20,567 bases of DNA, taken from the IMG/VR virus record IMGVR_UViG_3300027770_000308, positions 1 to 20,567 of that record. The stretch is one strand, 5' to 3'. Under the pieces are notes generated by a model, which had not been told where the DNA came from, searched no databases, and saw only the letters and a list, made by a program, of their open reading frames with translations. Origin of the DNA: a virus. The position numbers and the translations under genes are program-made. This document shows, in pieces, positions 846 to 20,567 of this stretch (its first letter is position 1; each line of letters begins with the position of its first letter).

Positions 846-3800
846 TTAAATTTCAAATGAGAATGGGAACCATTGAGTTGCGGTTTCGTATTGGCTAACA
901 CCAACAGTCTTTTGAGCAACTAAACCAAATTTACACAATATCCTTGTGGTACCTGGTGGGATTGGAATATTTTCATTATCAAATTCAAATAAAATAGCAT
1001 CATTACAAATTTGATATTTAAGTCCATTCACAAAATTATCATTTATTTGACTATTGTTGGCGTTTAAAATTCCAGAACCTAAAATAACTTGTTGGTATTG
1101 GTTATTAGATGTCGCACTTAATGTCACAAATTGATAAGACATTGTAGTATCGTCTTCAGTGTAGAAGAAATCCCAAGGCGATAACGCAGGATTTCCATTA
1201 GGATATAAATCAGAATTTATTGTAACAATCAAACAATCACCAGCAAATCCTGTTGTTCCTGTCATAACAATTGCTCCCGTTTGTTGAGTATTTGTGTTGG
1301 TATTTGGTAAAACATTTGGTACAACTGTTGGTGGTGCGGCAGTTGTTTGTAATGGATTATAAGTAAATAACGTAGAACTACTTCCACTTCCATGCGTTCC
1401 ACTTAAACTTATTGGGTTGTTTTGTAAATTTGTTAATCCGTTATTAGTATACGGAACAATCACAACAACATTAACCGCACTATTAATTGTAATACCTGTG
1501 GTTACTGTAACACCATTTATAGTTGCCGCAGTCACCGTACCTAAATCATCACCAGTAATATTCAATATAGTTCCTGTTACACCTGTTAATGGTGAGAATG
1601 AAGTAATTGATGGTGGAAGACATACTGGTCCTGGTAATGTTGTTGTGTTAAGATTATTTTGGGGTTGAGCCATTGCTAACTGAACCGCCATAGATGTCTG
1701 ACTTGCTCCATTAACCGCAACATCACTAAATCCAACTTCTTTTGCGGATGCAACACCTTTCTTTAATGTATCAAACAATGTTTCGAATTCCGTTAAGTGT
1801 CCGTCAAAATATTCTGATGTAATATTTTGATTTGTTGCCGTTGGTGGTGTCCAATAACACACATAATATTTATCAACCCCAATTGGACTATTTCCATTTT
1901 CACCGTAACGTATTCTTGTTATGTTTGGAGTTAATCTGGCAACCATGAAACTTAAAAAGTCGTCAATAGTATTAAAATTAGCAATTGGTTTTACAACAGG
2001 AGTACTACTCGTTGAACCTGAAAGTGAAACACAAGATGCCTGTTGTTGAATGAAATATTGAGTACTTGCTCCCCAATATGTATCTAACGCAGCATTGACA
2101 AAATTACCATTATAACCATAAAACTTATTTTTATTAAATGTTGTTATATAACACATTAAATAAATTAAAAGTTGTAAATCAGGATTACTTGTTTTATTTT
2201 TAATTGCGGTTGCCAGCTCTTGTGGTGTTAATGATATGGTCGTAGATTCGACAAAATCACCCCAAGTACTATAGTTTGTATTAAGACTATTTGTACACGT
2301 GTTAGTTGCTGCCGCGGCATTATCACCAGTTTGTGATAAAATAGCACTTTTATTAATTTCTGTAATTGGAACGTCAGGTGTATTATCTTTCTTACTTTTA
2401 ATCGCGCTTTCAATTTGTGTTAAAAGATTTAAATTAATACTTTGTAATAAATTATCAATTGACGGTAAATCATAAATACCTTGTCGTATTCCACCAAAAG
2501 ATGTTTCAAATTGTCCTGGAGTTATGGTGTGGTTAACTTCTGTTATTAAATAAGGACCATTAAACATTGGAACGTGTCTAAGATTAAAATACATTGTTGG
2601 TTGTAATAACGCATTACCCAAACAAATAACCTGACATTGATAACTTCTTTGTTTATAAAGATTATACAACCCAACATTTTGAGTCGCAACATTTCTACCA
2701 CTTGCTTGGTCAACCATATTTAATTGTGTCTGAACACTTTCTGAAGTTGCCTTACCATTAGCCATTGAAACACTAAATGAATAAAATATATTTTGATTTC
2801 TTGTACCCACATCAACATTAAATCCAACACATTTGTTAGATAAAGCCCAATCTTTTTTTCCTACTTGGTTTTCAATCAATGGGTTTTCAGACGCTCGTCT
2901 TAAATCAAAGGCATCGTCCCTAAATCTTGAGTTTCCTTTTGGTAAATCTAATTGTGCTGATGGAATACCAGCATAGAAACAAATTAATTTTGGGCCAGAT
3001 TTTCTATAATCAACATCTAAGAATGTCCCCCACATATTATCGGCAAACTCTAAAGACCCTTCGGCACTTTGAGATAATGTTGTTCCGTCCGCATCCTGCA
3101 CATTATAAAAGTTAACATACGCAGGTAATGGCATCACATTAAATTTATTTTTAATTAACAAACCACTAAGGAATGTAAAGACACTCATTTCCATGTTAAG
3201 AGAACTTTCTTCAAATGTCTTATCACCCAATAACATGTCTTTTAAAGCAAAGATGTCAACGATAACCGTATCTCCAACATTTCTTGATGCTCGGTCTAAG
3301 AATAGAAAATCTTCAAATAAAGTTCTGTTTGTAAAATCACCACCAGCAATCCATTTATCATTTAGTGCTTTAAATACCTCATAATTTTCAACTTTGCTTT
3401 GTTGACCATCAATAACACTTTGTATTTTTTTCTGAGGTAATTCTTGTTGATTAGGTAAATCAGCCCTAACTTTTGTTAAGATTTGATTTAAAAAAATATT
3501 TTGTAATTCTGATGTCCCATCGAAATATGTTTGAAGTCTTGTTTTAAACTCGGTACTTGTAATCGTTGGTGTATTTAATTTTTGTGTCGCATATTGTTTA
3601 ATTAATTGTGAACATAACACAATATTATCAACCGAAAATTCAATATTATTATTAATAAAGAAATCGGTTATATATGAACCATTGTCAGTATAAACCAAAT
3701 TTTCAATTGTTGAGAATCCAACTTCAGTTTCTAATGCAAGCCAAGCTTGTTGATATATTGCCTTTGATTGTTGTAAAGTAATTGTACCATTTGCTGATGG

Positions 3801-6800
3801 TAATGAATTTGTTACATATGGATTAAAATCAATTGGGTCCACAATTGGATTTGTTCCACCATTAGACGCAAGGAAAGAATCTACAACTCTTCTTTTGTAA
3901 TTTGCAGGATTACCATATTTTAACATCACATCAAACTCCAAGAATGATTTAATTGTGTTTGAAAATGTGGTTAATTGAGCATTACCAAGTGTATTAAAAT
4001 ATTCTGTCGTTGTTGTTGACGATGAATTCGAATTAACCGACATTAATTTCCTAAACAAGTATTGGAAGTTTTTATAGATAGCATTCTCATCTACAGGTGA
4101 TTGTCCAATAGGTACTACAATCTGAGGTCCTAAATCAATATCAGTAACTGGTTTGGAGAAGTTTAAAAATTCTTGTTCAAATTTATCCAAAATACTTTTA
4201 TCGAAAACTGAAAATATTTCTTCAATATTAGAATATTCATTATCGATTAATAATTTAAACGCAGCTTGTTTTGTATTACCCGTATTAATTTTATTAATAT
4301 ACGCTTCAGGATTTGGCTTAGCAATCTCATCATTATTAAAATATCCGTAGTTTGGTGCAGACCATAATAATCTAACCGAACCATTATAAATTGATGCATT
4401 ATCAATAAACGGACAAACTTGTACATTATTTTGTAAACATTCCATACTAACTTGGTTAATTGGTGAACCAAAAGATGGAACTATAAAATAACCTGGGCTT
4501 GTAGTATTTTGATTTGGAGAGCAAGTTCCTGATGACGCAACAAAATCAATAACAGTATCGGGTAAAACTACAGACCATGTTTGAATTGTTGATTTAGGTA
4601 CCCCACCAAGAGCAGTAAAAATTGAACTGGTTGGGTTAATATTTGAATCTGTAAAGTTAAATACTTTCATACCACCATTAATACTTGTTTGTATTTCTGT
4701 ATCGGTATATCCACTATACAAGTCATATCCATTATAAAACACATTAAAGTCATTAATTACTTTTGGATAAAAACCTGTTTGTATTTTTGAATTGTTATTA
4801 ACAAGACTTTGTAATGTTATACTTTTTTCACCGTCAAATAAAAACTTATATGTTTTAGTATCTGAACTCGTTACAGGGTCAAAATTAACTTTATAATTAA
4901 AGTTGTCCCACGCAGTTTCAATAAAATCAACACCAGTCGCTTTGTATGTTTTATATCTATACCATACTGAACCCATTTTTAACACCCAAGCATATGGCAT
5001 TTTGTGGATAGCTCCAAACTTTTTGAAACAAGACGCAATGTAATCTAATTCTGTCGAAGCCCCGTATGTTTGATATCTTTCTTTAAGAGATGCCAATGGT
5101 AGCGAATTAAGAAATAAATACGCAGCTTGAACGTATGGATACTTATCACTCTTTCTCCAATTATAAACTCCGTTTTGAATTGCATTTACCATGTATGGTG
5201 TATTCAACATGGTGGTGGTTGTTTCGGTAGTTACGTTTGTTGATGGTCTTAAGAAGTTAACATAACCTTCGGTTGGTATAAACTTGGTAGGATTTTTTCT
5301 TCCATCATAAAATACTGACAAGTTTGTTGCGGTTATTTCTGTTGTTGGATTTGTAACCAATAAATACGAAAAATTAGTGACAGGTCTGTTTGTAGTATAA
5401 TCATAAACACTATTAAAGTTTGAAATAACATTTCTATCTTTGAATACTTTTAAGACTTGATTTGTATTATATACCGAATTATTAACACTACTGTTACTTT
5501 GACTCATATTATTTGCAACCCAAGTTGGATTGGTAAATGGATAGGTATCAATAATAATTGGGGTGTTTGACGCATTTTGAACTAATTGTTCCAACGCCTC
5601 GTATTTAGCCGCCATTTGTGGTTCTTTACCTAAATCATTAATAGTAAGAATGTTAAATGAATTCTCCGTTAAATTTTTAATATATGGTGTAACATAAAAA
5701 TCTCTAATAAATTCTTGGTAAGATTTACCTGTTCCATTATTTGAGAAATTCTGTAATGTTTGAACATAATTTTGAGCGGTAATATTATAGTTTTTAAGTT
5801 TTAAAGTTAAATAAGGGGAACTTACACCTAAACTACTTACAATATTATTTGTTTCAGAACTAAGTACCAAATCACTTAATTGACTTAATTGATTCGCGTT
5901 TGCTCGAATAAATCCCGAATAATTTGAAGTAAGAAATTGTCGTTCCCATATTTCATAAAAGAATTTAACTTCTTCTTTATTAACATATGCAATACCATTT
6001 GAGGGATATTCGATAGCGTTTATATTAATAATATTAGTGGTAGACTGACTATCTGTTGGTACTTGAGCTATTGGTGGGTTAAACTTTTGAGTTAATCCTC
6101 TCATATACTCTTCAACAAATTCAACCTCAGGCCATTTATCATATAGATAACCTTGAGTAATATCAACAACGGAAGGGTCTGCAAGATACTTTAATTGAAA
6201 TCTTCCTTTTTTATCTTCAGGGGTTTCAACAAAAAACTGAGGCCAAGGGTATACAGGTATTTGACTTGTCGATAATCCTTGATTTTGACTTTTAGCTTGT
6301 GCTGATATTTTAACATTTTGTCTTGTATCAGTACCAGGTGCCGATGATGGGTTATCTAAAATCGCAAGTTGTCTAACAGGGTCATATTTAACATTCCATG
6401 CATTGGTGTGAACCTCATCAAGTAATCTGATAAACGCTTCAGCTGACGCCATTACAACTGCACAAATATTTCTAACTGTTGGTCTAAACCCAAGTCCTAT
6501 TGTACTGTCCTCAATTTTTCTTGAGAAATCCGCAGTTAGAGCGGTTTCATATTCTCCAAGTTTTCTATTTGCTTCCGCCTCCATTTGAGCTATCAAATTT
6601 TCAAACCTAGGAATACTTTTACTATCTACAGTATTTGATTTAAAAATATATAAAGGGTTAATAATAACATTATCTGACTTTTCAGATTGGGTGATTGATT
6701 GAATACCCGTTGTTACGTCAAATTTTTGACCCAATAATTGTTCCAAATACTCTTTAATTGATTTGGTGTCCCCCGTTGTTGGAGCCAAAATACCCGTTAA

Positions 6801-8213
6801 ACTTACCGTTGTTTTATTTAAATCAATATCAGTCAAACTGACATTAATTAACATAGTATCATTAGTAATACTATTTTTAACAGGAGAAGGTCCCGCAACA
6901 CCTAACGTGGGATTTGACGCCAATAATTTATTATATTCAATAGTATATCCGCTGAGTAAACTACGAGCAGAATTTTGAGCACTTGTATTAAGTTCAGGTT
7001 TTAAAGCGTAAACATAAGTACCATTTGTTAAGACAATTGGTTTTGTATTTATGTATTTATTATACCAAGAACTACTTGCACCATAAATTGTATCATAATA
7101 TTTTCCTAAAGTTTCTTTGTAAGCCCTAATATTAGTTAATGGTTGCACATCAACTTTAGTATACGAACTAATGACTGTTTGTTCAAATAAATCAAGTTTG
7201 TTCATTAATTGAGCAAATGTTAATTCAGGGAAATTAGGTTCAAGTAATCCTTTTGCTTTGTATTCACTATAAACTTCAACAACTTTTTGGTAACCTTTTT
7301 CACTAACAATTTGAGTAACAACATTATCACTACCATTACTTGCTTGACCAACAGCGTTTGATTGACTTTGTTTTGTTGTTGTTTCTATACTTTTATTACC
7401 ACCTTCAACAGATGTTGGTGATTTAGAAATATCAAACCTTGAACTATACATGTGAGGTGTAGCCAATAGGTTACCCATAGAAATTTCATTCAGGATATTA
7501 AATTTATATCCCACAAACTCTAACGTAACCCCATAGTTACCACTAAATGAATTGAACCTAGCATTAAAAGTTGTTAGGTTTAATTGATATTTAATCGCTT
7601 GTCCATAATAACCTTTAAGTGTTAAATAGAATGGTGGATAGGGTAAATTAAAAAATGCGGCATATGGTGAATTATCACCTAATTGGAATAACGCCCTTCC
7701 TTGAACATCCTCCAACTCTATACTCACAGTTGGTATAAACGATGTATTAGTTGTAACTCTAATTGATGTAATACCTAATAAACCATTATCTGTGGATTTA
7801 TTTCCAGGATTATTTACCGTAACCTTATTGTATGGTCTAGTGCCATCCTTTGGGTCAATAATTTCATTACGAATTTGATTATCACCTAAACCATTTTTTG
7901 AGTTTTTACCTGTTAACTCATCATAATATCCTGATGTAAGTGAGGTACCTTCAGTTGGTCTTAAGAAATTCATCTTAGCAACCGAAATAATTCTAATTCT
8001 ATCTTCAGGACTACCACCAACCGCCAATTTAGTTCTTGGTAAAACTTCTGCTTCAAGATTGGCAAACATAACCAATTTCTCATGGTCAACCAATCTTTCA
8101 CGAATATTTCCGAATGCGTCAATAGTTTTATTTGGGTCAACAACAATAATGTTGTTATAGTCAAATTCAACTAATATATTTCCGCTGTTGTCTCCTGGTG
8201 TATTACCTGCCAT
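846..8213 (-). CDS. Giant baseplate hub-like structural protein (2455 aa) with C-terminal IPT/TIG domain
   Basis: ATG at 8213 overlaps the end of the 107-residue gene by 11 nt. The ORF is intact and ends with TAA at 846. Visible parts: an N-terminal structural region (about 155-265) with SIELEDVQGRALFQLGDN, FNLPYPPFYLTLKGYYGQ and FNSFSGNYGVTLEFVGYKFN, a pattern I associate with large phage baseplate proteins; a very long Asn/Thr/Tyr-rich middle; a segment at about 1865-1910 (PTMYFNLRHVPMFNGPYLIT, then EVNHTITPGQFETSFGG) like the closing strands of hub proteins of the gpD/gp27 type; an alpha-helical region at about 1995-2095; and an IPT/TIG immunoglobulin-like domain at about 2185-2275 (ITSFSPLTGVTGTILNITGD). 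The last ~150 residues are unrecognised. It is far longer than T4 gp27 (about 390 aa), so several baseplate functions are probably fused. Family-level call is moderate; exact role is inference. Confidence 0.65.
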   Translation of the reverse strand: MAGNTPGDNSGNILVEFDYNNIIVVDPNKTIDAFGNIRERLVDHEKLVMFANLEAEVLPRTKLAVGGSPEDRIRIISVAKMNFLRPTEGTSLTSGYYDELTGKNSKNGLGDNQIRNEIIDPKDGTRPYNKVTVNNPGNKSTDNGLLGITSIRVTTNTSFIPTVSIELEDVQGRALFQLGDNSPYAAFFNLPYPPFYLTLKGYYGQAIKYQLNLTTFNARFNSFSGNYGVTLEFVGYKFNILNEISMGNLLATPHMYSSRFDISKSPTSVEGGNKSIETTTKQSQSNAVGQASNGSDNVVTQIVSEKGYQKVVEVYSEYKAKGLLEPNFPELTFAQLMNKLDLFEQTVISSYTKVDVQPLTNIRAYKETLGKYYDTIYGASSSWYNKYINTKPIVLTNGTYVYALKPELNTSAQNSARSLLSGYTIEYNKLLASNPTLGVAGPSPVKNSITNDTMLINVSLTDIDLNKTTVSLTGILAPTTGDTKSIKEYLEQLLGQKFDVTTGIQSITQSEKSDNVIINPLYIFKSNTVDSKSIPRFENLIAQMEAEANRKLGEYETALTADFSRKIEDSTIGLGFRPTVRNICAVVMASAEAFIRLLDEVHTNAWNVKYDPVRQLAILDNPSSAPGTDTRQNVKISAQAKSQNQGLSTSQIPVYPWPQFFVETPEDKKGRFQLKYLADPSVVDITQGYLYDKWPEVEFVEEYMRGLTQKFNPPIAQVPTDSQSTTNIININAIEYPSNGIAYVNKEEVKFFYEIWERQFLTSNYSGFIRANANQLSQLSDLVLSSETNNIVSSLGVSSPYLTLKLKNYNITAQNYVQTLQNFSNNGTGKSYQEFIRDFYVTPYIKNLTENSFNILTINDLGKEPQMAAKYEALEQLVQNASNTPIIIDTYPFTNPTWVANNMSQSNSSVNNSVYNTNQVLKVFKDRNVISNFNSVYDYTTNRPVTNFSYLLVTNPTTEITATNLSVFYDGRKNPTKFIPTEGYVNFLRPSTNVTTETTTTMLNTPYMVNAIQNGVYNWRKSDKYPYVQAAYLFLNSLPLASLKERYQTYGASTELDYIASCFKKFGAIHKMPYAWVLKMGSVWYRYKTYKATGVDFIETAWDNFNYKVNFDPVTSSDTKTYKFLFDGEKSITLQSLVNNNSKIQTGFYPKVINDFNVFYNGYDLYSGYTDTEIQTSINGGMKVFNFTDSNINPTSSIFTALGGVPKSTIQTWSVVLPDTVIDFVASSGTCSPNQNTTSPGYFIVPSFGSPINQVSMECLQNNVQVCPFIDNASIYNGSVRLLWSAPNYGYFNNDEIAKPNPEAYINKINTGNTKQAAFKLLIDNEYSNIEEIFSVFDKSILDKFEQEFLNFSKPVTDIDLGPQIVVPIGQSPVDENAIYKNFQYLFRKLMSVNSNSSSTTTTEYFNTLGNAQLTTFSNTIKSFLEFDVMLKYGNPANYKRRVVDSFLASNGGTNPIVDPIDFNPYVTNSLPSANGTITLQQSKAIYQQAWLALETEVGFSTIENLVYTDNGSYITDFFINNNIEFSVDNIVLCSQLIKQYATQKLNTPTITSTEFKTRLQTYFDGTSELQNIFLNQILTKVRADLPNQQELPQKKIQSVIDGQQSKVENYEVFKALNDKWIAGGDFTNRTLFEDFLFLDRASRNVGDTVIVDIFALKDMLLGDKTFEESSLNMEMSVFTFLSGLLIKNKFNVMPLPAYVNFYNVQDADGTTLSQSAEGSLEFADNMWGTFLDVDYRKSGPKLICFYAGIPSAQLDLPKGNSRFRDDAFDLRRASENPLIENQVGKKDWALSNKCVGFNVDVGTRNQNIFYSFSVSMANGKATSESVQTQLNMVDQASGRNVATQNVGLYNLYKQRSYQCQVICLGNALLQPTMYFNLRHVPMFNGPYLITEVNHTITPGQFETSFGGIRQGIYDLPSIDNLLQSINLNLLTQIESAIKSKKDNTPDVPITEINKSAILSQTGDNAAAATNTCTNSLNTNYSTWGDFVESTTISLTPQELATAIKNKTSNPDLQLLIYLMCYITTFNKNKFYGYNGNFVNAALDTYWGASTQYFIQQQASCVSLSGSTSSTPVVKPIANFNTIDDFLSFMVARLTPNITRIRYGENGNSPIGVDKYYVCYWTPPTATNQNITSEYFDGHLTEFETLFDTLKKGVASAKEVGFSDVAVNGASQTSMAVQLAMAQPQNNLNTTTLPGPVCLPPSITSFSPLTGVTGTILNITGDDLGTVTAATINGVTVTTGITINSAVNVVVIVPYTNNGLTNLQNNPISLSGTHGSGSSSTLFTYNPLQTTAAPPTVVPNVLPNTNTNTQQTGAIVMTGTTGFAGDCLIVTINSDLYPNGNPALSPWDFFYTEDDTTMSYQFVTLSATSNNQYQQVILGSGILNANNSQINDNFVNGLKYQICNDAILFEFDNENIPIPPGTTRILCKFGLVAQKTVGVSQYETATQWFPFSFEI

Positions 8214-8526
8214 AATAATAAAAATAGTTATCTAAGGCCGCTTTATAGTCCTGTAATGAAGGTAGTAGCGGATAAGGAATAATCAATACCGCTCCATCAA
8301 ATATATTATTTTCTAACCCTCCAAATTGTGGGTTAGCTTGTAATATTAACCAACCAAAATATGGTGAGTTATAATATTCTTGAGAAACAACATCCAGTCT
8401 ACTTCGAGCAACTTTATATATGTAGGATTTATCGGCGGGTTTTTGTGGTAATTGCACAAACGGAACAACAGTTTGCTCACCGTTGATTAAGAAATCACTA
8501 TATCTATTATAATATTGATATGCCAT
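8203..8526 (-). CDS. LysM-like baseplate protein (gp53 / tail protein X type)
   Basis: This 107-residue soluble protein has the pattern of a LysM-like tail module: SRLDVVSQEYYNSPYFGWLI at about residues 42-61, then LQANPQF and DGAVLIIPYPL at about 77-87. That matches the helix-plus-strand pattern (start-up helix, YYxxPxxxWxIxxxN, then I/V-x-G-x-x-L-x-I-P) seen in small baseplate wedge or tail-tube-completion proteins. Such domains in tails act mostly in protein-protein contact rather than peptidoglycan binding. Its ATG overlaps the stop of the 1692-residue gene as TAATG, and its own end overlaps the 2455-residue gene by 11 nt, so all three are probably translationally coupled and made in proportion. 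Assignment to gp53 itself is by analogy; P2 gpX-like is an alternative. Confidence 0.65.
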   Translation of the reverse strand: MAYQYYNRYSDFLINGEQTVVPFVQLPQKPADKSYIYKVARSRLDVVSQEYYNSPYFGWLILQANPQFGGLENNIFDGAVLIIPYPLLPSLQDYKAALDNYFYYYGR

Positions 8527-11500
8527 TAGTTGAACTTAACTTTTGAGATGAAAACATCACCTAAAGGTGATTCCTGTTCATCATCCCATGTTTTATTATT
8601 TGTGTTTTGGTTTTCAGTTGCCCCCAATCCTTTAATCAAAGCGATTTGACCTTCAGAGTTAGCATCATCAGTTGTATACGAGAAAAGTCGTTTTTTGGTT
8701 GGGTATGGAGTAAACTTCAAGAAGTTTTGTAACTTTTCTGTTTCCATATAAGTGATAAATTCTTTTGTTATTGTGTTTTCCTCAACAAATGCTGGTTTAG
8801 CAATTTGTTTCCAATATGCGTCAAACTCAGAATTTAATTTAACCCCATCCCATCCATTACCAATAAGTCCCGCATTATTAATTATATTACCAATCATTGC
8901 GGTTTTAAAGGTTTCATATTTTTTATCATCGACAACATCATCGGAAACAATCATATAAGTTCTTCTAAATTGAGTACTTTCAACATTACTAAATAATGGA
9001 GATTTACTAAACGGTACAAATATCTTTTCGTTATCAGGAAATTTATAATAATTATCAAAAACTAAAATACCTGTATATGAAACACTTTTAGATGTAAATG
9101 TTTGGTTAACATTTATAACTTTATTAAATTCGGTTATACCACTGTTGATTATTGCAATATCAAGTTTTAATTCCTCTAATGTATTTGTTGCACCTTGAGA
9201 ACTAACATCAACGTCAGGTGTTGGAGTTAAAACAAATGATGTAACATTACCATTTTTTTGTTGTGACCCATCAGTACCTTTACCACCGTTTCCTGGTTTA
9301 AAGTATGGAATTGTATTTGCTCTTGAAACATATTGAAGATATGATTGTTGGATGTTTACCATACTTTGAGTTATAGTTGTTACAGCGTTTTGATAACTTC
9401 CTTTTTTGTTTTTAACAAGACTAACATAATTTTCTTTAAGTTGTCTTATCACTTTAGGTGAAAAGTCTTTTTGGTTAGTGGTGGTTCCTTTCATGAATTG
9501 AATAAACCCATCATTTTCATCTTTAATGTCTGTAATTAATTCTTCAAAAATAACATCAATTCTTTTTTCGGTGTTATAAGGTTTACCAAATAATATTGTA
9601 TCTAAATTTTTAGTCTGCAAGAATTTACCATTAGAATAATTTCTTTCTAACATCCATTGTTGACGTAAAGCATTATTATATTGATTAACGGTTTCTTTGT
9701 TTTTATTAACAACATTTGTAAAATAAGTTTGAGTTTCAACCGCAAGCTTATCCATAAATTCTTGATACGCAATTGTACCTGTTTGTCCACTTTGAAGAAG
9801 TTCTGTTGTTATAATTGTACCAATTGTTGTTTCATTACTTAAAGCGTTATTAGGTGCTGCGTTATTAACTCCTGGAGGTCTAACATTACTTAACGCTGCA
9901 AATTGTAAAAAGTCTTTATCAAGTACTTGATAACTTGTATCAGTAACATCTGCCCTGTCATCATAAATTTCAGTATTTGCATAATAGTTGAACGTCAATG
10001 CGTTTTGTAATTTGTCAACAGATTCTTTTAATCCGCTACCACCAACAAAGTTAAACGACAGATTAATCTTCGCAATCATTGGTTGAACACCAATACCTTC
10101 AGGATTAATATCTAAATTTTCATACGCAATTGTTAAACTTGTTGGGATAATTTTAGTGTTATAAAAATCTCCAACTCTTAATATTAATACTGGAGGTGCT
10201 CCAAACGCTGTGTTTGTTGCATTATTATATTCCATTACATCCTTACCACCAATAGATTTAACCACAGGTATTGTATCACCAGGTCTCATACATTGTTGTA
10301 AGAATGTCAACCTTGTGTTAAGACCCTCAGGTGTCATTGAGTGAAATGCTGGTTGGAAGAATTTTAATTTATCTTTAAGGTTATCGTAAACCATAGGTGT
10401 TTCTTCCTTTATAACCTCAAAGTAATCACACTCCGATAATAATGACATTAAAACTCGTTTTGTAATATTATCTCTTGGTACCGTAACATCATTAACCGTT
10501 GTTTGAGTTTCAGTTGTTGTCACAACTTTACCTGTAACAGTTGTACTTGTTTGAGGTGCTTGTTGAGGTACGGGTTCTGGCTTTGGTGCGGTTAATGTTG
10601 AGTTAATACCTGATATGTATGCTCTTCTACAAGCCATTGCACTAGTTGTATAGATATCTTTTGAACCTGATTGTGTATCACCACCAACAGCGTTGACATC
10701 ATTGTCAGTACAATTAACCGTTGTTCCTGGCGATAAACCATCAATCGAATATGGAGCAGTAGTTGTTTTAGATTTTAATGGTTGTGAATTTGTATTTTCT
10801 CCAAATCCAGTACCACGAGTAACAATTAATCTTTTTTCTTTAACATAATTTGTGGTTGCAGGGTTTTCAGAAAAAAATCTAATAACAGAATTAATTCTTC
10901 TTTGGGCTAGTTCTTTATTGTAGGTCTCGGTTTGAGGAGCCGAACAACTTGAATCGATTGTAATTGTTATCGTACCTTGTTCACTATTTTTAATTTGTTC
11001 TGCAACATCAAGAGCAAATTGTTGAGCAATTTCATAATTTGAAGTAACAACAGTATTATAAAACTCATCCAACTGAACACCATTTGTTTTGCTCAAATAT
11101 GTTGGTTTTTCATCAATGTATTCGTCATACATTTCGGGATAGTTTGGAGATGTATTACGTTTTGGATAATCATTTGAGAAATAGAATCCTAGTTGTTTGT
11201 ATTTTTCAAAATATGAATTACTTCCTGGCGCTGGTGTGCTTGAGCTACTTGCTCCCGTACTACCATTACCCGCTCCACCACTTTGAGCTGTCTGAGGATA
11301 TGTTGTAATAGTACTAACCGCAAATTCCATCTGTTCTCTTGTGATTTCTTTAGAAGTAATCGCTTGTTGGATTTGAAATAAATCGTTTGGATTTATTGTA
11401 TAATATTTTTTAGCCAATTCATATAAATCATATTTTCTACATCCCGCAAAGAATGAGTCCAATATACTATCAATTCTTGGTTTGTTGGTTTCGTTAGCCA

Positions 11501-13604
11501 ACACTTTGTTAACAATAACATTTAATATTGACGGGTGGTCAACAACAATATCCCAAGTTAAACTACCAGTTCTACTTGTGTTTTTGTATGTGTAGATTGG
11601 TTCAGGTCTACCGATAAAATCACTTTGATTCCAATTTGCTTGAACTGACTCGTTAAAAACTAAATTATAAGGTGGGAACCACATAACTCTACCACCATTA
11701 GGACCTCTTTCACATATTGCCAAATCAGATACCGCCATACCAGGAGCGTTTGATGTTGCCCATGCCAAGTTTTCCAATGAGAACATGTATTTTTTAGCAT
11801 AACCATTATTCATAGTCCCAATAATGTTGGTCGAGTCTTGTCCACCTTCTTGTTTGTTTGGAGCTATGTTAAGATTATATGTCTTATCTAATACCGAATA
11901 AGAAAATCTTCTTCCTTCAGTTGTAATACCGTTAGTTTTTTGAAGGTCATTATATTGAAGATATGGAATATCTTTGGCAAACACCCTACAATACTCAGTA
12001 CCAACTTCCTGTCCAATTTCCCCAACATAAGTTAATACCCTTGAACCCTTTGTCATTTCTTTGTATCCATCGTTGAATACTTTACTGACTTGGTCCATCG
12101 CATTACCAACGTGTTGTAATCTTTTACCACCTTGTGGTTGGCTATCAATAATTCTTTGTGTCTTATCAAGTATAGAACCTTCTTTAAACGTTCTTTCTGT
12201 GGACTCTGTTGAGTTATAAGATGATGGTTTAAAGTCTTGGTCTTGGTCATATATTGCACCACCAATACCTACCTTTTTACCAGCATTACCTTTGTACTTT
12301 GGAGACACCCATGTGAATCCACCTTCAATACCACCACCATTACTATAAGTCGGACCGTTAGCACCCAAACGAATTTCCTTACTTGGACCTTCATATAACT
12401 CAGCTAACTCAGAAGGACCATAAACGGGGTCTTGTTGTTCATTACCAAACGCATCTGACGGTAATGCTCCCGATGGTGAGAATACTCTTGATGGGTCAGA
12501 AGATGTACTACCAACATAAAAGTTAGAGTTGTTGGTATTAGTCCCAACAATCGCTCCACCCAATCTATCTATTAAAGTTCTATCGTAGTTTGGCTTATAC
12601 TTGTTGTAGTTAATATTTTTAAATAAAATGGATTTTTGACCTTGACCTGTATTTTCGTAGAATATTTGAGTTCCTGTTTTATTAGCACCTAATAAATTAC
12701 TAATAAAATTTCCACCAGCGGCAATTGGATTGGCTAATAATGATTGTTGAAGTGTTGTTGGTTGTGGTGGATTGATACTTGTATCGAAATAAGAACCAGG
12801 AATTGTTGAGAATGGTAAAGTACTACCCGCTAAACTAAGAGCAAAATTGGCTGCAGCCCCTAACACATTCGAAGGTACCGTAATATTGTAGTTTGGTTCA
12901 ATTAAAGGAACCCTACCCGTTAAAATATTAACAAGGTTGGTACTACTATTAACGTTTAAGATATTTGCCCTACCAACAGTTTGTCTTATTAACTCCCTAC
13001 CGATACGGTCTTGGAACTCTTTCTTTAAAGTTTTTGCCCCCAATCGAGCTATGAATGAGTCATCACTTAATAAACCATTACTACCTTGTGGGTCAGGATT
13101 TAATAAAATAGATACAGGTGGATAAGATGATGGATTAAATCTAGGATATGGTTGACCGTTTGGTGGTCTATCTTGGTCGGGTGTTACAATTTCTAAAGTA
13201 GAAACCGCTTCACCAGCATCAAAGTTATTATTACTTGAATAGGCATTTAATGGTCTCCATAGTTGAGTTGCCGCAAATCCCGTGTCCACAATATGAGCGT
13301 CCTGTTGACCAGGACCATATTCACCTTGATTTGAAATAGTGTTTAAATTACCTGTAAGGTCAGGTGCTTGGTAGTATCCACCCTGATTTCCGTATCTGTT
13401 AAGTGGATAAAATTGTGAATTGGCAATGTATGGAGTATCAATTAGATAATCAGGACTATCAACAGGTGTTAAATCTCTTTGTATTACCTCAAAAGTTATT
13501 GGTGGGGTAGCAGGGGTAGGTGATTTAGCATATGGTACTAAATTTCGAACGATTAGTTTTTTTCTAAATCCTTCGGTACTAATATAATCTAACGGACTAC
13601 CCAT
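8526..13604 (-). CDS. Large baseplate structural protein (1692 aa) with embedded OmpA-like domain
   Basis: ATG at 13604, TAA at 8526; intact. The N-terminal ~530 residues are Gly/Asn/Pro/Ser-rich and poorly structured. Around 630-705 comes a conserved-looking block with WFPPYNLVFNESVQANWNQS, FIGRPEPIYTYKNTSRTGSL and DIVVDHPS, a pattern I associate with tail-tube-like or baseplate proteins. After a Gly/Ser linker, about 785-995 has the elements of an OmpA-like domain: LGFYFSNDYP, a helix, ITITIDSSCSAP, YNKELAQRRINSVIRFF, VTRGTGFGEN and a closing ACRRAYISG. A Pro/Thr linker follows, then a second structural block at about 1085-1200 (HSMTPEGLNTRLTFLQQC, VLILRVGDFYNTKIIP, NPEGIGVQPMIAKINLSF) and a helical C-terminal region. 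The gene lies between the tape measure and the coupled LysM-like gene. It is therefore most likely a baseplate or hub component that may touch the cell wall. The OmpA call is good; the precise baseplate position is unknown. Confidence 0.7.
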   Translation of the reverse strand: MGSPLDYISTEGFRKKLIVRNLVPYAKSPTPATPPITFEVIQRDLTPVDSPDYLIDTPYIANSQFYPLNRYGNQGGYYQAPDLTGNLNTISNQGEYGPGQQDAHIVDTGFAATQLWRPLNAYSSNNNFDAGEAVSTLEIVTPDQDRPPNGQPYPRFNPSSYPPVSILLNPDPQGSNGLLSDDSFIARLGAKTLKKEFQDRIGRELIRQTVGRANILNVNSSTNLVNILTGRVPLIEPNYNITVPSNVLGAAANFALSLAGSTLPFSTIPGSYFDTSINPPQPTTLQQSLLANPIAAGGNFISNLLGANKTGTQIFYENTGQGQKSILFKNINYNKYKPNYDRTLIDRLGGAIVGTNTNNSNFYVGSTSSDPSRVFSPSGALPSDAFGNEQQDPVYGPSELAELYEGPSKEIRLGANGPTYSNGGGIEGGFTWVSPKYKGNAGKKVGIGGAIYDQDQDFKPSSYNSTESTERTFKEGSILDKTQRIIDSQPQGGKRLQHVGNAMDQVSKVFNDGYKEMTKGSRVLTYVGEIGQEVGTEYCRVFAKDIPYLQYNDLQKTNGITTEGRRFSYSVLDKTYNLNIAPNKQEGGQDSTNIIGTMNNGYAKKYMFSLENLAWATSNAPGMAVSDLAICERGPNGGRVMWFPPYNLVFNESVQANWNQSDFIGRPEPIYTYKNTSRTGSLTWDIVVDHPSILNVIVNKVLANETNKPRIDSILDSFFAGCRKYDLYELAKKYYTINPNDLFQIQQAITSKEITREQMEFAVSTITTYPQTAQSGGAGNGSTGASSSSTPAPGSNSYFEKYKQLGFYFSNDYPKRNTSPNYPEMYDEYIDEKPTYLSKTNGVQLDEFYNTVVTSNYEIAQQFALDVAEQIKNSEQGTITITIDSSCSAPQTETYNKELAQRRINSVIRFFSENPATTNYVKEKRLIVTRGTGFGENTNSQPLKSKTTTAPYSIDGLSPGTTVNCTDNDVNAVGGDTQSGSKDIYTTSAMACRRAYISGINSTLTAPKPEPVPQQAPQTSTTVTGKVVTTTETQTTVNDVTVPRDNITKRVLMSLLSECDYFEVIKEETPMVYDNLKDKLKFFQPAFHSMTPEGLNTRLTFLQQCMRPGDTIPVVKSIGGKDVMEYNNATNTAFGAPPVLILRVGDFYNTKIIPTSLTIAYENLDINPEGIGVQPMIAKINLSFNFVGGSGLKESVDKLQNALTFNYYANTEIYDDRADVTDTSYQVLDKDFLQFAALSNVRPPGVNNAAPNNALSNETTIGTIITTELLQSGQTGTIAYQEFMDKLAVETQTYFTNVVNKNKETVNQYNNALRQQWMLERNYSNGKFLQTKNLDTILFGKPYNTEKRIDVIFEELITDIKDENDGFIQFMKGTTTNQKDFSPKVIRQLKENYVSLVKNKKGSYQNAVTTITQSMVNIQQSYLQYVSRANTIPYFKPGNGGKGTDGSQQKNGNVTSFVLTPTPDVDVSSQGATNTLEELKLDIAIINSGITEFNKVINVNQTFTSKSVSYTGILVFDNYYKFPDNEKIFVPFSKSPLFSNVESTQFRRTYMIVSDDVVDDKKYETFKTAMIGNIINNAGLIGNGWDGVKLNSEFDAYWKQIAKPAFVEENTITKEFITYMETEKLQNFLKFTPYPTKKRLFSYTTDDANSEGQIALIKGLGATENQNTNNKTWDDEQESPLGDVFISKVKFN

Positions 13605-15581: not shown

Positions 15582-15751
15582 CTATTATCTTCAATCCATT
15601 TATCCAGTAAATATTTTCTAACAAACAATGGCATCCGTTCAAAATCTTGATAAGAAATTTTCATTAATGTTGTCAGATAGTAAAATTCGTCTATCTGAGT
15701 TTTTCTATAATCAGAAGAAAGGGCGAAAAAAGTCAGCCCCAAACCCAACAT
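15572..15751 (-). CDS. 59-codon frame overlapping the chaperone gene in +1: likely frameshift extension (gpT-like)
   Basis: In the +1 frame relative to the 247-residue gene, the sequence is open from ATG 15751 (just after an in-frame TGA) to TAA 15572, overlapping the upstream gene by 41 nt and continuing 139 nt past its stop. Past that stop it encodes DYRKTQIDEFYYL, ISYQDFERMPLFVRK and YLLDKWIEDNRKD, a charged, amphipathic helical sequence that looks like genuine protein. It occupies the slot between tube and tape measure where many phages make a chaperone and a frameshifted longer form (lambda gpG/gpGT). A +1 slip at TTT TTT CGC (15731-15723) would fuse 243 residues of the chaperone to 50 of this frame, giving 293. 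Alternatives: a separate small protein reinitiated from ATG 15751 or from ATG 15664 (30 aa). No SD precedes either ATG. Confidence 0.6.
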   Translation of the reverse strand: MLGLGLTFFALSSDYRKTQIDEFYYLTTLMKISYQDFERMPLFVRKYLLDKWIEDNRKD

Positions 15752-16454
15752 TCACTGTTAGTTTTTCTCCTGACGGGGCTATAATTGTTTTAGTCATATC
15801 CAATCTTGGTTCGTTTTCATTCATAAAATTTCTTATGAATTTTGAGTCAGAGATTGGTAGTGACTCAACGAATTTTGCAATCATAGCTTTGTCGGTTGAA
15901 CCATCAACTTCAATAATTTCTTTTTGCATTCTCCATGTAATTCTAGGGACAACTCTACCTTGTGGATATGAGTCCGCCATTTTACCAATTTCCATAATTT
16001 CACCATAACTTAATGGTTTCAATTTAATCGTTGATTGAGATTTTGGTAATAGAACTTTAAATGAACCATCCGTGTCGGGATGTTGTCCGTTAATAATACT
16101 TAATTGGTCTAGTAATATCGTTGGACTAAACGGTTTTTTATTTGAGGGGTCTACAAGATTTAATGTAATTTCTGGACCAAATCCAGTGTTTCTTAAGAAG
16201 ATTAGAATTGCTTCAACATCCCCCTCAAGTAAATCTTCAACCTTAACATCTGGCTCATAGATTTTTGCCCTTAATAAATTCATCGTTAAATCGTTTCCCC
16301 CACCCATCAGAATGTTTTCATCCGACGCAGTTAGATAACCAACTTTAATTGATTTCTTTTTGTTTTTATAAAAAATACCTTGTGATGGTAATTGTACCAC
16401 ATCGTGTGGTAGTGTGAAATTGTCTTGACCGTGGTCTCTTGATTGATTGTCCAT
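15711..16454 (-). CDS. gp26-like baseplate/tail assembly chaperone (T4_baseplate family)
   Basis: ATG at 16454, TGA at 15711; 247 residues, soluble, no signal peptide. The N-terminal part has VVQLPSQGIFYKNKKKSIKV then GYLTASDENIL (about 20-50), the pattern 'LPSxGxFY...LTxxDExIL' that I associate with T4 gp26-like base plate proteins. The middle has KVEDLLEGDVEAILIFLRNTGFG (written here in pieces: KVEDLLEGD, VEAILIFLRN). The C-terminal end has FVESLPISDSKFIRNF, then APSGEKLTVNVGFGADFFRP and a final FF. T4 gp26 is about 208 residues, so the length fits. The gene lies between tube and tape measure, the usual tail assembly chaperone position, so it probably keeps tape measure or hub parts competent during assembly. 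A hairpin ends 9 nt before its ATG. Its 3' end overlaps a second frame in +1, discussed separately. Confidence 0.65.
   Translation of the reverse strand: MDNQSRDHGQDNFTLPHDVVQLPSQGIFYKNKKKSIKVGYLTASDENILMGGGNDLTMNLLRAKIYEPDVKVEDLLEGDVEAILIFLRNTGFGPEITLNLVDPSNKKPFSPTILLDQLSIINGQHPDTDGSFKVLLPKSQSTIKLKPLSYGEIMEIGKMADSYPQGRVVPRITWRMQKEIIEVDGSTDKAMIAKFVESLPISDSKFIRNFMNENEPRLDMTKTIIAPSGEKLTVNVGFGADFFRPFF
15723..15731 (-). other. Candidate +1 ribosomal frameshift site (TTT TTT CGC)
   Basis: In frame 0 the chaperone reads GAC TTT TTT CGC CCT. A Phe-tRNA (anticodon GAA) on the second TTT can move forward by one base and pair fully with TTC, while the A-site CGC, likely a scarce Arg codon at this base composition, favours a pause. 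The next codon is then GCC and the +1 frame runs on to 15572. The site falls inside the 41-nt window where both frames are open. The TTC TGA stop context at 15716-15711 is a weaker alternative because the shifted pairing is poor. Confidence 0.4.
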
Positions 16455-16526: not shown

Positions 16527-17015
16527 TTAGTAAACTAACACACATCTATCCATTCTTAAAGAAGCTGTGATATCCGCTAACGCATCTTGACTATAAGATA
16601 ACGCTCCGAAGTTTACATCAGTTAAGAATGTTCCATAAAGAATCCATTTCTCAACAACAACTCCTGTTGGGTCCAACATCTCAAGGTCGATGTCTTTTTT
16701 ATAACCCGCAGCATAACCCATACGACCTGTCACTGATTCAGCATGTAAACGAACCCACTCCATAAGAGCTTGAGCCGCTGAAGGTCCGATAGGGTCACGG
16801 AATTTAACACTGATAGGGTCCCAGTTAAATCTACCTGCCACAAATGTAGAGGTATTTAAAAATTGTATTTCAGTTGCACCAATCTTGATAGACGGTCTTG
16901 AAGCGCTTTCAACAAACCACTCGTTGATACCCAAACTTGACGGAAACCTTAAAATAAAACGGTTCTGTCGTTTTGGTTCGTAAGGTATCGGCATTTTCAT
17001 TAATAAATCAGCCAT
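16527..17015 (-). CDS. Tail tube protein (T4 gp19-like)
   Basis: ATG at 17015, TAA at 16527; 162 residues, matching T4 gp19 (163 residues). It has the tube family layout: an N-terminal strand block (PKRQNRFILRFPSSLGINEW, about 14-33), VESASRPSIKIG (about 35-46), the FNWDPISVKFRDPIGPSAAQ segment (about 63-82), a helix ALMEWVRLHAESVTGRMGY (about 83-101), then DIDLEMLDPTGVVVEKWILY and a C-terminal strand pair. It polymerises into the inner tube through which DNA passes. The leader is striking: 9- and 10-base A tracts (coding direction) within 30 nt of the ATG and no SD, consistent with very efficient A-rich initiation for a major structural protein. The upstream neighbour is the HAD gene rather than the sheath. 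Confidence 0.92.
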   Translation of the reverse strand: MADLLMKMPIPYEPKRQNRFILRFPSSLGINEWFVESASRPSIKIGATEIQFLNTSTFVAGRFNWDPISVKFRDPIGPSAAQALMEWVRLHAESVTGRMGYAAGYKKDIDLEMLDPTGVVVEKWILYGTFLTDVNFGALSYSQDALADITASLRMDRCVLVY

Positions 17016-17949: not shown

Positions 17950-17963
17950 ACTTGGCAAATAAA

Positions 17964-17994: not shown

Positions 17995-20567
17995 TTAAAT
18001 ATTCTCAAACGAAGCTCCTGTTGGAGTGATGAAGAATTCGATGTCGATGAATTCTAACGCCTTCGTAGGTTTTAAGTAAATTTTACCCGTTAATGTGTTT
18101 CTGTCTAAGTCTTCAGGTGAAGATGAAACAGTTACACGGAAATCGTATAAACCTCTATCTCTTCTTATTGAATCCAAGATAGGGTTAACACTATCCAAGA
18201 ATTGTTGTCTAACGATTTGGTCGTTTTGTTCGAACAATAATCTTACCGCTACCGCTGAAATCAATTTACGAGCTTGAAGTAATAGTCTTCTTACATTCAA
18301 TCTGTTAAGTGCTGTGTCAGCAACTTGTAATGTTTTATTACCCCAAATTACAGTTCCAACATCAGAGAAAGTTGCGATAGGGTTAATTCTACCTTGATAC
18401 AATGTATCTCTATCGGTTTGAGTAAGTTTTTGTCTAGCTTTGATTGAATTTACAAGACCTCTTGTGTAACCCGCAGATGCGAACCAAGGGAATGAAATGT
18501 TATCCGTCAAAGCTAAGTTTCTACAAACTTCACCTGTTGGTGGTAAGTAAATTTGTGTGTTGTTTACAGTATCTCTTGTTAAAATCCAAGGGTAGTAAGT
18601 TGCCGTATAGTTAGAGTCAATTCCTGTATTATCCAAATTATCAACAGCTTCTTGAGAATAAATAATATCTAAAGAATTAGTTGAGTCTGGTGTATACATG
18701 TTGTAGTCAGGAGTTGTACAGATATAAACTGAGTCAGCTCTTGAGTATTGAATCATATCTATAGCTTCCTCAACAAGATTTGAGTTGTTAATATAGTCGA
18801 TACTTGAACTCGCAAATACGTTAATGTTGGTTGCTTCAGGGTTTGCAAATGTTAAGATACCAAGCAAGTAAGCGTAGTAGTCAGTGTTTGCGAAATCTTG
18901 AGTATTGTTTTGAACCACAATTCTCTTGAACAATCCATCACCCGTTGCGTTTGGATATTTTGAAGAAGGATAAGCTCCCGCTAAATAACCCGAAGAACCT
19001 AATTGGTATCTATCTTGGTTAGTTCTCCATTCTCTATAAATGTCCCAACCATCAAATCCACCTGCAAAACATATAGTATATTTTCTTGAGTAGATAAAGT
19101 AGTATGGGTTTTCTTGTGTTTGTGGGTCTGCTCTAAAATCCGCAACACCACATTCAAACGCAGTTTCACCACTTGTTATTGACGTGTTCGCAATTGTAAC
19201 AACGGTAGCTCCTGAGTCCATGTGGAAACCTTTACTTAACACATTCCATTTTACTGAATCAGTTGCGATTTCCCAACCTGATTGAGGATTTTGTTTTCCT
19301 TTATAAGTTAAGAACGATTCGTCAATACCGTATTGTGTTGAGAATCCTAAGTAAGTTCTTCTTACAATATCACCTGGTGATTCCACAGTATTTGAACCAC
19401 CCGCAGCAGTACCAAATGGTGGGTTAGCAATTACCTCACCTGGATAATCGTATTTTGTTTTAAATTTAGGATATGGTGATGGGTAAATTGCAGTATCTTC
19501 ATATTCTCTTTGTGTGTAACCGTAGAAACCACAAGGTAACGAATCGATTGGATACTCATTCGCCATTTCAACCATAACATATCTTGATATCAACGCAAAT
19601 TCACCATTAGATGAACCAATTTTTTTAGCGACAAAGTTATTAGTTGCAGGGTCCATATTACAGTTTGTGAATTTTTCAATCACAACTGGGTTAGCGTCTG
19701 TATCAAAGAAATTTCTAATTAATACATCAAACGACATATTATTGTATGATAAATTAGCAATTGAAATTTTAATTTCAGTGTTCGCAGAATCACCATCAGA
19801 AATTGATATGAATTTAAATAAGTTATAAACTTTATTACCTCTTAATTCAGAAACTAAGAATGGTGTTTCAGGTGATTGGTATTTTTCTAAATTCCAAGCA
19901 ATTGATTGACTTGACTGACTTCTAGCACTAGGTAGAGCAATTAAATCACAATTTAATCCACGAACATAACCTTGATTGTATGCGTAATTTAAACTTCCTT
20001 GATAAATTTCCTCAACATAAATTGGAACTTCAAATCTTGATTTACCAAAATTATCTACACCTAAAACTTTAGTGATGTATTTTGCCGAAGATGCTAATAA
20101 CGAAGTCTCAAATGAGAATGTATTATTATCTTTAGTAACACCCGACAATAAAAAACCAGCAAAAGGTGATTGTGTGATACCCGAATATTGTCCTGTACAA
20201 ACTAATTGTAAATTATTTGGAACCCAAGTATTATTATTATCATAATCAATACCTACTTGGTAAACAGGTCCGTGGTCAACACTTGTTGTACTATTAACAT
20301 ATTCTGTAAGACCTCTTGAACGAAGGGTACCAACAACCATGTTATTGTAATCGGTGTAAGCAGTTCCCGTGAAACTATATGACTCACCTGTAATTGTACC
20401 AGTGAAAACACCAGTTCCTCCTGACACTAAATTAGTAACGTAATAGTAGAATGCGTATCCTGTATAATTATTTCCTGATGAAATGTCGAAGTTAGCATAA
20501 AACCACGGGTCATTTTCAGACGCAGATAAATCATTAAGTTCAAAATCGTTAATACAATTATAAGGAT
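17995..20567 (-). CDS. Contractile tail sheath protein (T4 gp18-like; N-terminus outside window)
   Basis: The frame is open from the right edge to TAA at 17995, with 856 complete codons visible. A GTG at 20427 lies inside the frame and is not a credible start, because coding continues upstream (for example NDPWFYANFDISSGNNY). The C-terminal ~170 residues match the sheath polymerisation domain: PIATFSDVGTVIWGNKTLQ, a helix LNRLNVRRLLLQARKLISAV, LLFEQNDQIVRQQFLDSVNP, then GLYDFRVTVSS and a final IDIEFFITPTG. Upstream blocks such as MVVGTLRSRG and EYPIDSLPCGFYGYTQREYE also fit the gp18 family. Sheath subunits surround the tube and contract to drive it through the envelope. T4 gp18 has 659 residues, so this one is at least 200 longer, suggesting extra surface domains in the N-terminal or middle part. 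A hairpin follows the stop. Confidence 0.93.
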   Translation of the reverse strand, partial: PYNCINDFELNDLSASENDPWFYANFDISSGNNYTGYAFYYYVTNLVSGGTGVFTGTITGESYSFTGTAYTDYNNMVVGTLRSRGLTEYVNSTTSVDHGPVYQVGIDYDNNNTWVPNNLQLVCTGQYSGITQSPFAGFLLSGVTKDNNTFSFETSLLASSAKYITKVLGVDNFGKSRFEVPIYVEEIYQGSLNYAYNQGYVRGLNCDLIALPSARSQSSQSIAWNLEKYQSPETPFLVSELRGNKVYNLFKFISISDGDSANTEIKISIANLSYNNMSFDVLIRNFFDTDANPVVIEKFTNCNMDPATNNFVAKKIGSSNGEFALISRYVMVEMANEYPIDSLPCGFYGYTQREYEDTAIYPSPYPKFKTKYDYPGEVIANPPFGTAAGGSNTVESPGDIVRRTYLGFSTQYGIDESFLTYKGKQNPQSGWEIATDSVKWNVLSKGFHMDSGATVVTIANTSITSGETAFECGVADFRADPQTQENPYYFIYSRKYTICFAGGFDGWDIYREWRTNQDRYQLGSSGYLAGAYPSSKYPNATGDGLFKRIVVQNNTQDFANTDYYAYLLGILTFANPEATNINVFASSSIDYINNSNLVEEAIDMIQYSRADSVYICTTPDYNMYTPDSTNSLDIIYSQEAVDNLDNTGIDSNYTATYYPWILTRDTVNNTQIYLPPTGEVCRNLALTDNISFPWFASAGYTRGLVNSIKARQKLTQTDRDTLYQGRINPIATFSDVGTVIWGNKTLQVADTALNRLNVRRLLLQARKLISAVAVRLLFEQNDQIVRQQFLDSVNPILDSIRRDRGLYDFRVTVSSSPEDLDRNTLTGKIYLKPTKALEFIDIEFFITPTGASFENI

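Follow-up and report, generated by a model that had tools for sequence, protein, structure and literature searches.

The OmpA-C/Pal domain (PF00691; PDB entries 3td5 and 4pwt) is found at the C-terminus of envelope proteins and has an Asp in its ligand pocket. TagL contacts diaminopimelate (DAP) through Asp486, Asn494, Leu497 and Arg501 in a crevice formed by three loops (PMC8253398), while PorE holds its peptide through Asp576, Asn584 and Arg591 by hydrogen bonds or a salt bridge, with hydrophobic contacts from Phe541, Tyr583 and Ile587 (PMC7192894). A critical role has been reported for D271 in the OmpA of Acinetobacter baumannii (PMC6572160), and in Treponema pallidum Tp0624 an Asp-to-Ala change is accompanied by undetectable DAP binding (PMC5104382). 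The D3 domain of the latter spirochaete envelope protein (5jir) is a divergent OmpA-like domain that retains the Arg but has lost the Asp throughout its family. OmpA-type domains are also attached to a contractile-tail machine in the T6SS anchors of the TagL/TssL type (7bba, 5m38 and 4b62); TagL, in which the Asp is retained, anchors the membrane complex of the firing cell itself. A different wall-binding fold, LysM, serves as a structural part of contractile baseplates: in phage A-1(L), the wedge and initiators encircle the LysM protein gp16 (PMC10966104), and in AlgoCIS a LysM domain accompanies the barrel of the tube initiator Alg7 (PMC8894135). None of the open-access titles and abstract beginnings covered by our literature search reported an OmpA domain in the baseplate or virion of a phage. 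Two phage proteins annotated as OmpA-like (A0A8S5RHQ6 and A0A6J5KTY6, of 338 and 411 aa, with matches no better than E 0.028 and 0.62, respectively) are, unlike the protein described here, not large baseplate proteins. The fold itself is known; deploying it in the baseplate protein of a phage, and with a Ser-type pocket, is the new variation here.

The window, that is, the whole stretch of DNA analysed, is the 20,567-base virus record IMGVR_UViG_3300027770_000308 from IMG/VR. Its minus strand carries a myophage tail module, in which PHROG matches identified the tail sheath (17995..20427, minus strand; phrog_23, E 1.6e-47; frame open to the window edge), the tail tube (16527..17015, minus strand; phrog_4542, E 3.7e-24) and the baseplate hub (15711..16454, minus strand; phrog_150, E 8.1e-12). 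Ahead of the open frame (8526..13604, minus strand) for the 1692-aa baseplate protein that carries the OmpA domain lie, in this order, the tube gene, the hub gene and, where a tape measure would stand, a 626-aa gene. A baseplate wedge-like gene of 107 aa adjoins it downstream (8203..8526, minus strand; phrog_7145, baseplate wedge subunit, E 6.3e-4). The gene for a 2455-aa putative hub-like protein (846..8213, minus strand) occupies the same place in the gene order as that for the 938-aa protein of Flavobacterium phage immuto_2-6A (MW353175). Neither Pfam nor PHROG gave a match for the 2455-aa protein; its positional counterpart in immuto ends in a VanY peptidase. Between sheath and tube lies a 279-aa gene (17119-17958), whose product begins KYYAFDWDDNIVHMPT and has no match in PHROG or Pfam; by eye, this start resembles that of HAD-type proteins. 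As to the idea that a wall-anchoring domain might position a hydrolase, Pfam detected no hydrolase domain in the 1692-, 2455-, 626- and 279-aa proteins of the window, nor in seven proteins of two relatives (L019 and L024).

In the 1692-aa protein, the OmpA domain appears to interrupt the fold of what is apparently a baseplate protein resembling tube initiators, a designation that we infer from one supported half of a barrel and from gene order. The presumed left half of this barrel (residues 635-700, 11505..11702; coordinates of residues are likewise on the minus strand) has profile matches in the immuto 716-aa protein, towards its C-terminus, and in the relatives of that protein in Mel-JY01 and LR756508 (P 1.3e-6 and 1.9e-5). 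These three comparators, which carry no initiator annotation themselves, rank first to third among 59 ORFs (P 0.00028 to 0.002; best other, 0.0076). The presumed right half (residues 1132-1197, 10014..10211) is collinear and weak (P 0.043), and a ranking that includes unrelated ORFs, in which the LR756508 match comes sixth and the Mel-JY01 match falls at another place, does not single it out. The two barrel parts are separated by ~14 residues in immuto, ~30 in LR756508 and ~430 in the window protein. At E ≤ 0.1, Pfam detected an OmpA domain neither in the protein from immuto nor in three ORFs of LR756508, and sequence searches of the PDB with the C-terminal parts of the comparators matched no solved initiator.

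Gene order is alike in immuto_2-6A, which reads sheath, tube (annotated ‘tail completion’), hub, tape measure, 716-aa protein, 101-aa wedge and 938-aa VanY protein. Compared with it, the window gene likewise stands after the tape measure and before the LysM/wedge and hub genes, a place that we take to mark the tube initiator. The same place was also taken as that of the initiator from PMC8894135. The window protein would share its likely baseplate place, and the presence of a wall-binding fold there, with parts of the Alg7/gp16 type, in which the fold is a LysM acting as a structural clamp rather than an OmpA domain.

Sequence scores for the OmpA domain are modest. Over residues 862-942 of the 1692-aa protein, PF00691 scores 22.2 bits (E 1.9e-4), under the Pfam cut-off of 27.2; a DNA-level search of the window record alone gives 27.7 bits, above it. 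All 13 sequences of the first alignment (window included) match PF00691 at E ≤ 1. Among large relatives, the seven PF00691 matches of the baseplate protein are all under the cut-off, and five of 12 large related records have no match at E ≤ 0.001, while one relative (L343) scores 28.6 bits, above the cut-off. When the domain was searched against the PDB with hmmsearch, the best E-value was 0.047, and 22 of the 24 matches up to E 10 were of the OmpA type; the core alignment (residues 600-1240) gave three weak matches, all OmpA-type and all inside the domain, and PDB sequence searches with the whole 1692-aa protein yielded nothing useful.

Structure prediction is more decisive. AlphaFold modelled residues 790-1010 from a 41-sequence alignment with a pLDDT of 90 and a pTM of 0.88, and the predicted elements follow the beta-alpha-beta-alpha-beta-alpha-beta order of OmpA-C, plus extra short elements. 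The best VIA-align match (Z 10.3, rmsd 3.1, 119 aligned) was 3td5_A, the A. baumannii OmpA in complex with a peptidoglycan peptide. The 50 rows listed comprised OmpA-type chains (OmpA, Pal, OprF, TagL, another T6SS anchor, PorE, YfiB, MotB, OmpATb, FopA1 and similar proteins), the remaining rows being chains of the Legionella T4SS outer-membrane cap. In a model of residues 600-1240, structural matches cover model positions 186-405, equivalent to residues 785-1004, with low confidence on either side. Foldseek retrieved no match to the domain at E ≤ 1e-3 (best, 5.5e-3; target TM 0.24-0.52 among the 50 rows listed); against viral models it gave one clear match, the uncharacterised A0A6J5L6C4 (E 3e-4). 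Taken from AlphaFold, VIA-align and PF00691, the domain spans residues 797-1004 (10593..11216), or ~785-1004 at its widest. The original prediction, which placed an OmpA-C domain at residues ~785-995 of a baseplate protein, is therefore confirmed at the level of the predicted structure as a domain of the OmpA/Pal/MotB type, and the comparison with OmpA and Pal that it had proposed returned both. Its closing ‘RRA’ helix was misplaced: the RRA motif opens the last strand, after a short helix.

The domain shares with OmpA-C/Pal the fold, the element order, the pocket Asn, Leu and Arg, the flanking aromatics and a cysteine pair near the last strand; it differs in a long insertion that separates strand 1 from helix 1 and in standing between linkers in a virion protein. 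The cysteines, C965 (10710..10712) and C992 (10629..10631), are invariant (95/95 each) and could form a disulfide. In E. coli OmpA, the sequence also has a cysteine pair near the last strand, and this pair is a disulfide. On both sides of the domain, low pLDDT marks a flexible linker, as had been predicted: an N-terminal one at residues 766-796 (11217..11309) and a C-terminal one at residues 1005-1042 (10479..10592). Across 95 sequences, these are 17-31 and 29-48 aa long and contain 52% and 38% Gly+Ser+Pro+Thr, respectively, compared with 29% in the whole core. Such low-confidence stretches on both sides of the model suggest a tethered rather than a packed domain.

The pocket loop, DSSCSAPQ (residues 884-891, 10932..10955), was located by the same spacing as in TagL and PorE, and S885-S886-C887-S888 stand in it where classical members read G-H-T-D. 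The spacing 0, +8, +11 and +15 of the DAP contacts falls on S888 (10941..10943; the Asp position), N896 (10917..10919; Asn), L899 (10908..10910; the hydrophobic contact) and R903 (10896..10898; the carboxylate-binding Arg). We measured conservation in 157 full-length cores from 160 loci (three partial ones were dropped), that is, 94 distinct sequences plus the window. All four positions are invariant in these 95 sequences, and the last three are kept in 73, 70 and 72, respectively, of 74 aligned relatives sampled without regard to the domain (see below). In the classical motif TD(x)7NxxLSxxRA, Asn and Arg are thus kept in 95/95 each, and the Asp is Ser in 95/95, so that, of the ligand-contacting Asp and Arg singled out for checking by the original prediction, the Arg is retained and the Asp is not. 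The ‘RA’ end is also altered, with residue 904 being Ile in 88, Val in six and Leu in one of the 95. For every PorE contact except the Asp, the window domain has a like residue: Y895 is kept in 93/95, and F809 (Phe in 91/95, Tyr in 4/95) pairs with PorE Phe541 on our reading of the beta1 motif.

The domain as a whole varies far more than its surroundings, with 17 of its 208 columns being invariant in the 95 distinct sequences against 162 of 360 in the flanks, counts that tally sequences rather than independent events. All four TagL DAP-contact positions are among the 17 (hypergeometric P 3e-5, relatedness ignored). Nine of the 17 (Y808, N811, P814, S888, N896, L899, R903, G935 and E936) lie at or just past the ends of strands 1, 2 and 3; G935-E936 (10797..10802; 95/95) belong to the loop after strand 3, as positioned from the AlphaFold strands. 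In the model, these nine residues would stand near the loops equivalent to those of the TagL crevice. Mean identity to the window over the other 94 sequences is 51% in the domain and 82% in the flanks, and median dN/dS, estimated from 144 pairs with 80-98.5% identity and usable dS, comes to 0.18 for the domain, compared with 0.05 and 0.04 for its two flanks. From these ratios, the OmpA domain is judged to be under purifying selection. Together with the identities and the invariant pocket, they indicate rapid drift in the domain at large but not in its crevice. Since the pocket Asn, Leu and Arg are conserved fold-wide in OmpA proteins, their invariance is no proof of binding.

To sample relatives blind to the domain, we used the pattern GDF[YF]NTK in the right flank, which matched at least 120 stretches, and examined the 80 loci listed. 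The left flank, OmpA domain and right flank were all present in 63; seven had both flanks without a significant OmpA match at first, and ten lacked a left-flank match, five of these having the OmpA domain. The possibility that some relatives are without the domain, initially raised by seven of 70 both-flank loci, was rejected on the scores of their inserts with the family profile or PF00691 or on motif. Each of these seven loci has an insert of comparable length, and the loop is GYAS, GKAS or GFAS in five of them. Searched alone (filters off; E-values for a set of seven sequences), five of the seven inserts score E ≤ 1.1e-4 with the family profile (11 to 56.5 bits); the L401 insert matches PF00691 at E 3e-5, and that of L327 has weak scores (0.052 and 0.027) plus the motif TGYASRQG...YNNKLAKDRA. 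The domain is therefore present in 69 of the 70 both-flank loci, and in the 70th, L327, on weak scores and motif.

None of the 74 aligned sampled relatives has Asp at the pocket position, which is Ser in 72, Lys in one and a gap in one; 20 of the 74 domains duplicate ones among the 95, and the other 54 have Ser in 52 and Arg in 52. At the equivalent loop, distant relatives read KGYASLAG, EGYASSQG or TGYASRQG, with intermediates such as VGSASAPA, so that the phage loops make a series GYASSQG, GSASAPA, SSCSAPA. The original prediction was right that the pocket Asp is absent, although the replaced loop was probably not of the GHTD type: because no sampled relative has Asp there, we prefer an inherited Ser-type loop to a GHTD lost in the window phage, and, judging by the aligned motifs, the window loop looks like a derived GYAS loop. 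In two distant relatives, L403, with Lys and Trp at pocket positions, and L333, in which the Arg is not aligned, the pocket Arg or the NxxLSxxR motif seems to have been lost with the fold seemingly kept; this apparent loss in two of 70 both-flank loci implies that parts of the family can do without the site, and it makes the two loci natural controls.

Ser-type loops also exist in cellular proteins. A search of genome contigs with a GYASPEG DNA pattern gave 80 loci among the matches listed, and the quartet Ser, Asn +8, Leu/Ile +11 and Arg +15 is exact in 64 of them; as the pattern preselects Ser, this demonstrates existence, not frequency. By record label, 63 of the 64 are from Bacteroidota (one taxonomy-checked) and one is an Omnitrophota MAG. 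S888, N896, L899 and R903 place the window domain in the same GYAS subclass, whose loop type is that of the distant phage relatives, whereas in the window phage it has drifted to SSCSAP. In four genomes with such loci, 30 of 46 OmpA matches were read by eye, giving 21 Asp-type, four ASPEG and five unclear. We know of no ligand for the Ser-type (GYASPEG) OmpA-like proteins of Bacteroidota, and none was given in the paper titles and abstract beginnings searched.

Orthologues, full or truncated, were present in 18 IMG/VR loci in the first scan, and a wider IMG/VR scan matched at least 599 stretches, 582 of them relatives, of which the best 80 were retained. Among 50,697 named phage records, there was no relative of the whole 1692-aa protein at E ≤ 1e-3, and the core or a relative’s domain gave chance-level matches at E ≤ 10; the first scan of genome contigs matched 53 stretches, none of them a relative. 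A bS21 gene (PF01165) is present in five of 12 large records with the baseplate gene (G003, G005, G006, G008 and G012). Phages with bS21, of up to 331 kb, have been predicted to infect freshwater Bacteroidetes (PMC9723584), and gene content makes it likely that the family corresponds to this group. The hosts of this large uncultured group of contractile-tailed phages are probably Bacteroidota. Separately, three of the 12 large related records have extra OmpA-type genes apart from the baseplate gene, in four frames of 381-405 aa (L172, G005 135568-135843; L173, G011 909-1217 and 1992-2273; and G004 3960-4247). The two that were fully read have ASASI and SSASI loops and, in common with a third, cut gene, the N-terminal motif MIKQ.W.I...E.NRIL.LHESAT, which may be a tag for packaging or targeting.

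We tentatively propose, as a reading somewhat short of an even chance, that a tethered Ser-type OmpA domain in a tube-initiator-like baseplate protein touches the host wall during penetration. In large myophages of this family, two flexible linkers would hang a GYAS-derived OmpA-C domain from the initiator-like protein. The barrel halves are close together in related phages without the domain, and here ~430 residues that include it would intervene, the left half being supported by profile matches and the right placed by position. Copies of the domain would be arranged around the end of the tail tube. Once sheath contraction has carried this tip across the outer membrane, the domain could touch the peptidoglycan stem peptide, or a close relative of it, through the conserved crevice, with the serine and backbone amides standing in for the aspartate carboxylate; this contact might steady the tip or signal its arrival. 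Within this proposal, prediction and alignment establish the fold, the linkers and the conservation, the place in the particle has partial support and wall binding is our inference. Retention of the Asn, Leu and Arg of the DAP pocket in 95/95 sequences favours wall binding, against which stand the uniform Asp-to-Ser replacement (given Tp0624 and D271 of A. baumannii OmpA), the lost ‘RA’ end, the relatives L333 and L403 apparently without the Arg and the structural precedent of LysM.

Several of these points would also suit a purely structural baseplate module that packs on the hub or wedge and binds no wall ligand, which we regard as the main alternative, serious but less probable. Such a module would readily tolerate replacement of the Asp throughout the 95 sequences and the seeming loss of the Arg in two distant relatives that keep the domain, it has LysM counterparts in contractile baseplates (gp53, gp16 and Alg7), and it fits a dN/dS about four times that of the flanks. 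A packing role sits less well with conservation that clusters in the crevice of an otherwise largely variable domain, and with low-confidence linkers on both sides that speak for tethering. Binding of another envelope or virion ligand, such as a different amino acid or a protein, in a co-receptor step rather than as a wall anchor, seems rather improbable to us: the Ser state, family-wide (72/74 sampled) and shared with a Bacteroidota subclass, argues for a ligand of its own, and faster evolution fits a host-facing surface, yet the phage domain retains the Asn, Leu and Arg of the DAP pocket and its aromatic positions, and the titles and abstract beginnings of the papers searched offer no ligand for the Ser-type class. 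Chance or over-reading as the source of the OmpA resemblance, which sequence scores that are weak alone might suggest, is hardly credible and was rejected at the level of prediction, given the confident AlphaFold model, the consistent VIA-align matches, the canonical GYAS/N/L/R motifs at the equivalent place in relatives and the PF00691 score over the cut-off in L343.

Little is known of how contractile phage tails behave beyond the outer membrane, and the solutions familiar to us are mostly hydrolases. A conserved, tethered wall-recognition fold in the baseplate would, if our preferred reading of wall contact is true, let the tail engage the wall without an enzyme. The phage domain also points to a Ser-type branch of OmpA proteins in Bacteroidota. 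More speculatively, and on balance doubtful at present, a lineage of large Bacteroidota phages may carry a host-type, Ser-type wall-recognition domain at the tube tip, a counterpart of the T6SS anchor used from outside, which would read the peptidoglycan past the outer membrane and so time or anchor DNA delivery.
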